DNA of 64,000 nucleotides from Caldilineaceae bacterium (lineage in GTDB: Bacteria; Chloroflexota; Anaerolineae; Caldilineales; Caldilineaceae): assembly GCA_022827195.1 (NCBI GenBank), contig JAJDTL010000002.1, positions 62,001-126,000 on the forward strand. Direction: 5' to 3'. How positions within the stretch are numbered: position 1 is the stretch's first letter; the number at the start of each line of letters is the position of its first letter. A program made the translations under genes and the position numbers. Of this stretch, positions 9,726 to 12,504 are shown piece after piece. The notes under the pieces were generated by a model. It was not told the DNA's origin and did no database searches. It worked only from the letters and a program-made list of their open reading frames with translations.

Positions 9726-11057
9726 CTACCGCTGGGGATGGACGCTAAAGTACTGATGCAGCACCGACTCGACCAATCCACCGATCTCATAGGACTCCCA
9801 GCCGGGACTGCCCGCGAGGGAGAAGATGCAACCGCCGAGGACATACGAGTCCTGTTGCATCGCCTGGTCGTACCAGACCAGCTGCTCGGCATAGGCGCCC
9901 GGCCCCCAGGAGCCGAAGCCGTGCTGTGCCCAGTACTCCTGGAAGTGCTGCCATCCCAAAGCATTTGCAGGCCCTGGACGATTTGTAACGAGGCCGTCGA
10001 CACCCAATTCAGTCATTACCAGCGGAATTGCCCGGCCGGCAGGTATCAGGAACTGATTGTAGACCTGGCGGTACCGGAGGGTCAGCCAGCCGGTGTCATG
10101 CGGTCCCACACCGGGGTAGCGCCCGCGGCCGTCGCGGGTGGTATTGTAGTAGATGGTGGGCGCGGAGTACTCGTGCAGTCCCAACCAGCCGCCATGGGCC
10201 TGGGCTTCGGCGACTGCGGGCAGGAAATGGGGCCACATTTCCAGCGGGGGCTGACCCGTGCCGAAGTTGCCGATGACGCTGCGAAGGCCGGCCTGGGCGA
10301 GGAGACGCGTGCGTTCAGCCTCGAATTCGGCGAGGCGTTTGAACTCATCCGCGTTGCCTGCAACCGGCTCGTTGTAGGCTTCCCAGCCGTCGAAGTGGCG
10401 ACGGCGCTCCGGGTGGTCGGCCAAGGGCCAGAGGCGGTTGGCGTAGTCCTGCGCGGCGGCCCTGGCATTGAGGTTGTTCAGTTGCAGCTGGGGCAGGTCG
10501 ATGCGCCCGATGAGCTTGACCCGCGGGGCGGCCTCTTTTATCTGGCGCGCGAAGTTGAAGTCCAACTCCAACGTTTTGACGACTGCAACGCCGCCGGTGC
10601 GCAGAAGATTGAAGACGCTGGGATGATTGCGGGTGATGAACAGCCCCAACTTGCTTGGCGGACCGGGCGGAAAGGGGGTAACGGTCGGCGTTGGGGTGTT
10701 GGTCGGGACCGGCGTGTCGGTTGGGACCGGGGTTGCCGTCGGGTCGGGCGGCTGTGGCGTCGCTCTGGCGAGAGCAGAGCGAAATCCTCGCATTTCGACC
10801 CAAGGCAAATAACTGTGGTGGGCGTCAGGGGTGGTGGCCGACGCCGATAAGGAGGAGGCGTCAAGCGTTCCGCTGCCGTTCTTGCAGGCGCCCGCGAGCA
10901 CACCGAGGCCGACAACTGCGGCGCGCAGAAAGCGGCGTCGCGACCAAAGGGGCTGACTTCGACTTCGTGGTGGGGGTTCCGGCGAATCTTGAGAATTCGG
11001 TGCGGGACTGTCGTTCCCATTCGTGTGGGAAGAAGGGAAAGGTTTCTCTTTTGACAT
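9726..11057 (-). CDS. Tat-exported lipoprotein with a clan GH-A glycosidase-like domain
   Basis: The N-terminus contains a twin-arginine signal SRRRFLRA (39-46), a hydrophobic stretch, and a lipobox LAGAC with Cys58, so the protein should fold in the cytoplasm and be anchored outside. Residues about 98-130 form a Thr/Pro-rich spacer. The remainder looks like a (beta/alpha)8 barrel: E-A-Y-N-E-P carries the acid/base Glu of clan GH-A enzymes, and VMTELGVDG carries a candidate nucleophile Glu. Length is 443 residues from ATG 11057; the in-frame start 17 codons earlier lies inside the promoter. The substrate is unknown. Confidence 0.72.
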
Positions 11058-11063
11058 GGGGAT

Positions 11064-11092
11064 ACTATAGCATCGACATCGCAGCAGTTCAA
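11064..11092 (-). promoter_or_regulatory. Promoter of the glycosidase-like lipoprotein, nearly leaderless
   Basis: Minus-strand TTGAAC (11087-11092), 17-base spacer, TATAGT (11064-11069). Start of transcription would fall at about 11057, which is the A of the ATG, so the mRNA should be leaderless. Confidence 0.6.
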
Positions 11093-11239
11093 AGTAGAGG
11101 GCGCACATTTCTCCGGATTGACGCGGCCTTACGCGCCGCGAATCAGCACTGTTCCGAACCGATCATGTCGTGACCGGGATGGATCCACGGCGTTGAAAAC
11201 GAAGAAACTTGAGGGTGCGCTTAAACCAGATTATACCGT

Positions 11240-11268
11240 TTGCCCATCGGAAAGAGTTCGGCTACAAT
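11240..11268 (+). promoter_or_regulatory. Promoter of the SelW-like selenoprotein gene
   Basis: TTGCCC (11240-11245), 17-base spacer, TACAAT (11263-11268). The predicted start near 11275 leaves about 53 bases of leader before the ATG, which has a good ribosome binding site (AGAGGAGAG, 11315-11323). Confidence 0.6.
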
Positions 11269-11327
11269 ATCGGCAGGGCAATCAACTTATCCGGCGCGGA
11301 GAAACCGCCTAGCCAGAGGAGAGAGCC

Positions 11328-11594
11328 ATGGAGAAGTACAAGGTCAGTATTGAATATTGCGTGCAATGAAACTACACGCCCCGAGCCGTCCGTGCGGCGG
11401 CCGACCTGTTGGAGAATTTCACGCCGGCGATTGAGAGCCTCAAGATGATCCCGTCGGGCGGCGGGCTTTTCGAGGTGCTTGCCAACGATACGGTAGTGTA
11501 CAGCAAGAAGGCTGAAGGCCGTCATGCGGAGGAGGGGGAGGTGCTCGGCCTCTTCTCGGAGGCTGTCGGCCTGGAGCCGGCACCTAGAGCATAG
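11328..11594 (+). CDS. SelW/Rdx-family selenoprotein with in-frame TGA (Sec14)
   Basis: Reading from ATG 11328, behind an AGAGGAGAG ribosome binding site, gives MEKYKVSIEYCVQ, then TGA at 11367-11369, then NYTPRAVRAAADLLENF and on in the same frame to the TAG at 11592. With TGA read as selenocysteine the product is 88 residues with the redox motif C11-V-Q-U14 in the exact place where SelT/SelW/SelH-family thioredoxin-like proteins carry CxxC or CxxU. The downstream part fits the family: IESLKMIPSGGGLFEV, the strand VVYSKK, and EGRHAEEGEVLGLF. A gene caller would split or shorten it to begin at 11409. Function is probably a small thiol redox protein. A promoter lies upstream and a strong terminator downstream, so it is monocistronic. 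No selA, selB, selC or selD lies in the window. Confidence 0.88.
11378..11401 (+). promoter_or_regulatory. Candidate bacterial SECIS hairpin
   Basis: Starting 9 bases after the in-frame TGA, GCCCCG (11378-11383) can pair with CGG-C-GGC (11395-11401) with one bulged C, leaving an 11-base apical loop that contains G residues. Position and size match bacterial SECIS elements, which lie within the coding sequence just after the UGA. Pairing was judged by eye. Confidence 0.5.
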
Positions 11595-11647
11595 GGCTAG
11601 TTCGAGCGCGGCGGCCGATTGCGCCGGCGCCTGAACACGCGAAGACG

Positions 11648-11687
11648 AAGCCCGCTGCAATGATGGTTGCGGCGGGCTTTCTATTGG
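11648..11687 (+). terminator. Rho-independent terminator of the SelW gene
   Basis: AAGCCCGCTGCAA pairs with TTGCGGCGGGCTT (one G-T pair) around a TGATGG loop, ending at 11680 and followed by TCTATT. It begins 54 bases after the SelW stop codon and also separates it from the convergent NIF3 gene. Confidence 0.85.
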
Positions 11688-11751
11688 GGGACCGGCCGGC
11701 GCACTGGCGGCCGGCAGTTCGTTCAATCTGCGCAAAGACCGGTCAGGCTGC

Positions 11752-12504
11752 TCAGAGACCGGTCGGGAGGTCTACGAACTCGAAGTCGACGTTGAATCGC
11801 TCGGCCAGATGTGCGCCGAGGGCCTGTACGCCAACAGTTTCGGATGTGTAGTGGCCGCCGTAGAGGAGATTGATGCCTGCGTTGACGGCTTCGTAGTATT
11901 GGGAATGGCTGGTCTCGCCGGTGATATAGGCATCGCAGCCGAGGCCGGCCGCGTCGGCGATCTTGTCGGCGCCGAAGCCGCTGAGAATGCCGACCTTTTT
12001 GACCAGGGCCGGGCCCTCGGCCTGAACGAGGCGCGGCATCCCCACCCGTTCCCGGTAACGATCTACAAGCTCATCAAAAGGGAGCGGCACTTCGCACTCA
12101 GCGAGGACTGCGAGCGGCGTGCCCTTGACGTTGGCCCACCAGTCAGTGACGATCAGGCCGAGACGCCGCGCCAGTTCGGCGTTGTTGCCCCACTGCGGAT
12201 GTGCGTCGAGTGCAAGGTGGGCGGCATAGAGGTTGAGGTCGTGCTCGACGAAGGCGCGCACGAGGCGGCCGTAGCTGCCTACAAGCGGCTTCGCCCCGCC
12301 CCAGAAAATGCCGTGATGCACCAGCATCAGGTCGGCGCTCCGGTCAAGCGCAGCCTGCACGCAGGGTTGGTGCGCGTCGACCAGGCCGATGATCTTGTCA
12401 ACCTGCGGGCGCCCTTCGATCTGTAAGCCCTGCGGACCGTAGTCGGCGACCTCGTTGATGCGCAGTGTGTCGTCAAGATAGCGGACCAGCTCGTCTCTTT
12501 GCAT
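11752..12504 (-). CDS. NIF3-family dinuclear metal protein (YbgI/GTP cyclohydrolase I type 2-like)
   Basis: A 250-residue protein with the whole NIF3 pattern: [10 protein letters not shown] supplies the first metal histidines, [12 protein letters not shown] the next, and the C-terminal [29 protein letters not shown] supplies the remaining Glu/His ligands. Family members are toroidal hexamers with two metal ions per subunit, and their physiological reaction is uncertain despite the cyclohydrolase name. ATG 12504 follows AGGAAAAGG. Convergent with the selenoprotein gene; a DUF951 gene lies 54 bases upstream on the same strand. Confidence 0.92.

Follow-up and report, generated by a model that had tools for sequence, protein, structure and literature searches.

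Does the TGA codon that interrupts a short reading frame in a Caldilineaceae genome terminate translation, or is it read as selenocysteine (Sec)? The question arises at positions 11328–11594 of a 64,000-nucleotide stretch of DNA, referred to below as the window, whose closest named matches are Caldilineaceae MAGs of the Chloroflexota. The host assembly is itself a MAG from this lineage, with a size of 5.2 Mb in 54 contigs, a completeness of 97% and an estimated contamination of 5.3%. The frame that opens at ATG 11328 contains exactly one in-frame stop, TGA at 11367–11369 (codon 14), before its end at TAG 11592–11594, as a prior sequence-only reading had it. If read through, it would give a product of 88 residues in which the TGA occupies the fourth position of the proposed C-V-Q-x redox motif, as C11-V-Q-U14. 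The features of the locus are as follows:

11328..11594, + strand: predicted SelW-like selenoprotein gene, 88 residues and a TAG stop, Sec at residue 14
11367..11369, + strand: in-frame TGA predicted to be read as selenocysteine, C-V-Q-U motif; TGA conserved in homologs, Cys in stop-less ones
11385..11401, + strand: putative bacterial SECIS hairpin, from comparative pairing and fit to the bSECIS model
11315..11323, + strand: RBS-like AGAGGAGAG, 4 bases before the ATG, from direct reading of the sequence
11240..11268, + strand: weak sigma-70-like promoter match TTGCCC-17-TACAAT, by consensus match only
11647..11685, + strand: terminator-like hairpin with a T-rich tail, from folding; absent from the terminator scan output

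A lone in-frame stop resembles a fresh nonsense mutation, and a mechanical ORF list retains only the last 61 codons of this frame (TTG 11409–11594), bearing out the expectation that automatic annotation would lose the N-terminal part. Both observations would suit a decayed or mis-assembled gene, in which the TGA would be either a genuine stop or a sequencing error and the locus a pseudogene. The sequence-only reading had argued for an intact unit with a promoter and ribosome binding site upstream and a terminator downstream. The RBS-like stretch stands as described, while the promoter is softer than stated, being a weak match to 9 of 12 consensus positions; the promoter scan of 11050–11800 returned two sites (one per strand) against 0.2 expected. 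After the final stop, direct folding reveals a strong hairpin at 11647–11680 (−28.1 kcal/mol and z −6.0 for 11640–11690); the T-tract that follows it is imperfect, and the terminator scan of 11050–11800 reported none.

The family assignment was examined with profile searches in which the TGA codon of the read-through protein was entered as Cys. The 88 residues proved to belong, as proposed, to the SelW/Rdx family, matching Pfam Rdx PF10262 over residues 5–73 (67.9 bits for a cut-off of 22.6, E 9e-19) and NCBIfam TIGR02174 CXXU_selWTH (52.3 bits, over the cut-off of 34.2). The CxxC or CxxU pair that characterizes this family near the N-terminus is found at C11-V-Q-U14, and C11 and TGA14 are both present in all 31 distinct coding sequences of the homolog set described below. 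The score against the equivalog NF041051 SelTWH_Campy (‘SelT/SelW/SelH family (seleno)protein’) was 85.2 bits, under its cut-off of 88, and the gene is not filed there. Relatives of known structure were retrieved from the PDB with phmmer, namely the Rdx-family proteins 2FA8, 3DEX and 2P0G (E 2e-11, 3e-10 and 4e-9), whose homology covers the N-terminal part and stops near residue 65–68; we take these to be CxxC proteins without Sec, unlike the Caldilineaceae gene. The bacterial SelW-like selenoproteins (SELENOW-like, Rdx, PF10262) share the same Pfam family, a CxxU motif with Sec in second place and a SECIS just downstream, and our comparison found no defining feature in which the Caldilineaceae gene differs from them. 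Sequences of this lineage mostly read C-V-Q-U-N-Y-T-P-R-A-V at the motif, and closer to the C-terminus they conserve a G-R-H-A-E stretch.

The TGA is shared by relatives. A homolog search over 100 genomes, the window's own included, with E 0.001 or better, retrieved a homolog in 61 of them, and in 60 a TGA aligns to codon 14. The codon is TGA in 56/56 loci of a first set, made up of loci from 30 genomes and 26 named records with species partly in both and amounting to 31 distinct coding sequences, and again in 30/30 further loci from 30 more genomes. Overall, 86/86 loci carry the TGA, some species being counted twice, and homologs in both sets do not end at this codon. The more divergent TGA homologs are 31–39% identical and may not be strict orthologs. 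Stop-less homologs were found as well, all of them distant (28–35% identical), and 7/7 align a Cys (TGC or TGT) to the TGA codon.

In the set of 31 distinct coding sequences, codons 2–13 have an uncorrected pN/pS of 0.13 and codons 15–82 one of 0.28, and the amino acids of codons 8–11 are invariant in 31/31; judged from these sequences, the protein is constrained on either side of the TGA. A pseudogene is thereby made very improbable: the same TGA recurs in 26/26 named loci of other records and in 60/100 genomes, it is conserved across genera and families, constraint persists on both its sides, and a covarying hairpin comes next. The unit therefore appears intact rather than decayed. The same figures bear on a reading in which the locus makes a truncated peptide of 13 residues and, separately, a 61-residue protein whose translation begins internally at TTG 11409. 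The ORF from this TTG does exist, but its product would be deprived of one of the best-conserved parts, the C-x-x-U motif, and the strong constraint on codons 2–13, with its invariant block, leaves such an arrangement hardly credible.

Just downstream of the UGA, a hairpin is found at 11385–11401, with a 6-bp stem (GCCGUC/GGCGGC), a CGUGC loop and a loop start 21 nt past the UGA. The bSECIS model, as given in passages of PMC13188914, specifies a loop of 3–9 nt, a stem of 4–16 bp, a G among the first two loop nucleotides, a distance of 16–37 nt from the UGA and an energy of at most −7.5 kcal/mol. The hairpin lies within all of these bounds: the loop counts 5 nt, the second of them G, the stem has 6 bp, the distance is 21 nt and the energy is −12.2 kcal/mol for the 37-nt stretch that was folded. 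Folded singly, the 57 nt that begin at the TGA in the window did no better than shuffles (z 0.25), and comparative tests were therefore used instead. On an alignment of 31 rows (22 distinct), RNAalifold returned the same six pairs unprompted. All six stem pairs are present in 29/31 distinct sequences, where 2000 protein-preserving synonymous shuffles averaged 4.2 and never exceeded 10. Compensatory changes are seen in two pairs, five of the 31 sequences having U-A in place of C-G and one having A-U in place of G-C; U-G exchanges with U-A in 10, and the outermost pair is lost in two. In the 31-row alignment, the percentage paired, the number of cells changed on both sides and the covariation score exceeded those of all 500 shuffles, the number of pairs changed on both sides was reached by 15/500, and the number of pair types was in no excess, 500/500 shuffles being at least as high. 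Versions of the hairpin slid along the alignment pair in 19–76% of cells, versus 98.5% for the actual register. Synonymous change is also lowest just past the TGA, with a pS of 0.40 for codons 15–28 versus 0.61–0.74 in the other three blocks. The support for a SECIS is thus comparative and does not come from the window's lone sequence; the hairpin, absent from the sequence-only reading, is the strongest mechanistic evidence at this locus.

A loose scan of the window returned eight other read-through frames that combine a TGA with a SECIS-like hairpin:

3019, 9026, 42627, 44237 and 63356, + strand: TGA with SECIS-like hairpin, loose scan
31407, 33818 and 59204, − strand: TGA with SECIS-like hairpin, loose scan

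These eight places are probably due to chance, so that a TGA plus a hairpin is not diagnostic by itself.

The sequence-only reading had made its claim depend on Sec machinery elsewhere in the genome, and selA, selB, selD and tRNA-Sec, the set by which a bacterial selenoprotein producer is recognized, are all present in the same assembly:

contig C2, 78543–80450: selB, 643-aa ORF, 308 bits with its neighbors in the frame
contig C2, 141535–142980: selA, 522-aa ORF, 548 bits
contig C12, 21917–22903: selD, 332 bits
contig C22, 148179–148273: tRNA-Sec, anticodon UCA, 67.6 bits

Since these genes lie on contigs other than that of the SelW-like gene, in a MAG with 5.3% estimated contamination, a contaminant origin is possible judging from this assembly alone; the one-contig relatives G004, G011 and G015, in which the TGA gene, selB and tRNA-Sec sit together on that contig, speak against it. 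As a side observation, the selD frame of the host genome (1366–2682 on the − strand of record L021; C12:21917–22903 in assembly G000) has a TGA of its own in frame, within CAGUASK, and this SelD is therefore probably a selenoprotein itself.

UGA has been reassigned in some bacterial lineages, and the codon could accordingly be read as an amino acid other than Sec, as Trp by a general code change or as Cys or Arg by suppression. Several homologs, e.g. L033, L045 and L046, nevertheless use TGA as their final stop; the aligned residue is Cys, not Trp or Arg, in 7/7 stop-less homologs, a point that would also be compatible with insertion of Cys; and a complete Sec machinery is accompanied by the SECIS-like hairpin. 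We consider such a reading extremely unlikely. The computational tests named beforehand (family, machinery, homologs and Cys alignment) were all favorable to decoding as Sec, and we estimate at roughly 97% the probability that the gene encodes a SelW-like Rdx-family selenoprotein via SelB-dependent recoding of UGA to selenocysteine. The TGA is conserved, the protein is conserved on both its sides, the SECIS-like hairpin is, by the comparative tests, selected and the Sec machinery is complete; taken as comparative evidence these argue strongly for Sec insertion. The ribosome would start at ATG 11328 and, at UGA codon 14, the downstream hairpin (11385–11401) would bind SelB carrying Sec-tRNA(Sec), with selenocysteine inserted in place of termination to yield the 88-residue protein and its redox pair C11-V-Q-U14. 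By analogy with its family, the product is predicted to be a small CxxU thiol/selenol oxidoreductase of thioredoxin-like fold, with Sec presumably as the attacking and Cys11 as the resolving residue; membership in the family suggests both the fold and the redox role.

The neighboring genes were compared at 39 loci (26 named and 13 others, with species partly shared). A divergent upstream gene adjoins SelW in 29/39 and a convergent NIF3-like gene in 22/39. Among the 10 loci that miss the upstream gene, four (L028, L032, L033 and L049) have fewer than 400 bases upstream, whereas 1.4 kb or more of downstream sequence is available at most of the 17 loci that lack the NIF3-like gene, so that the neighbor on this side seems truly different there. 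Their divergent and convergent strands exclude both genes from an operon with SelW, and neighbors at the 39 loci offered no functional lead or partner. The divergent neighbor in the window (9726–11108, − strand) encodes 460 aa that include a Pro/Thr-rich segment and a twin-arginine-like stretch, SRRRFLRA, and gave no Pfam match.

Does the gene follow the Sec trait across genomes? selB is over the cut-off in 88/100 genomes, and the TGA gene is found in 59/88 of these versus 1/12 of the remainder (Fisher p 1.4e-4, without correction for kinship); at this search depth it is absent from 29/88 selB genomes. tRNA-Sec is over the cut-off in 93/100 genomes, although matches of 47–54 bits may be other long tRNAs, and it scores at least 61 bits in 57/60 genomes with the TGA gene. 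The three exceptions are G026 and G075, in which selB is present and the tRNA-Sec matches reach only 49.5 and 53.2 bits, and G019, whose TGA gene (L084) occurs without selB or tRNA-Sec over the cut-offs in an assembly that is 85% complete and in 1170 contigs, the lack being perhaps one of assembly incompleteness. Nor have all 12 genomes that lack an above-cut-off selB surely lost the trait: tRNA-Sec matches are strong in G070 (73 bits) and G093 (67 bits), G024 has a partial selB match of 160 bits below the cut-off, and these three may still decode Sec.

Six of the seven stop-less matches come from five genomes in which the TGA gene is present as well (two from G020 and one each from G018, G029, G030 and G040), and these six therefore look like paralogs rather than replacements; the 61st genome with a homolog, G037, has a stop-less match only. 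In a tree of 60 rows and 88 columns, flagged for few columns, six Cys rows share one long branch (100/100) beside the divergent Sec rows L102 and L103 (96/91). The seventh, L112, joins the divergent Sec row L109, with a warning flag for a possible long-branch artefact. No single branch separates the Cys rows from the others (2 changes); the point for which the tree is relied on is that none of them lies within the 50-row group to which the window's gene belongs (87/87 at its fork, not starred). The six rows of the long branch, L110, L111 and L113–L116 (G030, G020, G037, G040, G029 and G018), represent a second, distant Rdx-like stretch with CxxC that lies inside open frames of 247–409 codons.

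Among the 100 genomes, no Cys version of the gene was found in close relatives, even in genomes without selB. One could read this as a SelW-like protein that is Sec-obligate in this Chloroflexota lineage, its gene being lost, not Cys-converted, once Sec decoding is lost. The TGA form in 60/61 genomes having any match agrees with this, as do the 12 genomes that lack an above-cut-off selB, 10 of which are matchless while G037 has only a distant CxxC homolog. Against it, the TGA gene is missing too from 29/88 selB genomes, three of these 12 genomes (G070, G093 and G024) may still decode Sec, and the three divergent Sec rows (L102, L103 and L109) join Cys rows in the tree. We thus hold the Sec-obligate reading to be doubtful; if it were true, the protein might catalyze a reaction for which Cys is inadequate.

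The name ‘SelW-like’ was already applied to bacterial selenoproteins in papers from 2005 (PMC1088965) and 2006 (PMC1794560), and according to passages of PMC1794560 and PMC2398784 bacterial SelW-like selenoproteins with CxxU have been known since the mid-2000s. Passages of PMC1794560 also count the Chloroflexi as one of five phyla with some selenoprotein-bearing members, and state that SelW-like and a few other families have very few or no Cys homologs in Sec-containing organisms. The GOS data yielded 427 SelW-like selenoproteins with CxxU, the largest number among the rows listed in part of PMC2398784, and a table row ‘Selenoprotein W like’ in part of PMC5029168 gives 35 and 35. In epsilonproteobacteria, passages of PMC4607533 describe SelW genes that were missed by annotation, these too being selenoprotein genes with a 5/6-bp hairpin a few nt past the TGA; the Caldilineaceae gene differs by its phylum and by its NF041051 score. 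Sections of a 2026 review (PMC13188914) assign the family to PF10262, with CxxU, as predicted with high confidence; no word in this review begins with Chloroflex. Parts of a study of sponge-symbiont bins report SelA and SelB in the majority (PMC5649159), and its bin5 matches the record L031. Among the matches listed from open-licence papers, none dealt, by title or start of abstract, with this Caldilineaceae or Chloroflexota SelW gene, which is weak evidence of absence. The gene is a further member of a long-known bacterial selenoprotein family, for which the comparative case is unusually complete.

Ordinary ORF callers can cut or miss such genes, as the mechanical ORF list does here with all but the last 61 codons, so that annotated proteomes of the Caldilineaceae type may lack the active-site part of the SelW-like protein. 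For SECIS models in Chloroflexota, the homolog set with its covarying SECIS is a clean case. The most interesting remainder, with the reservations given above, is the absence of Cys versions among close relatives, by which this gene set bears on the rarity of Cys counterparts for the SelW-like proteins of Sec users that passages of PMC1794560 describe from a smaller set.
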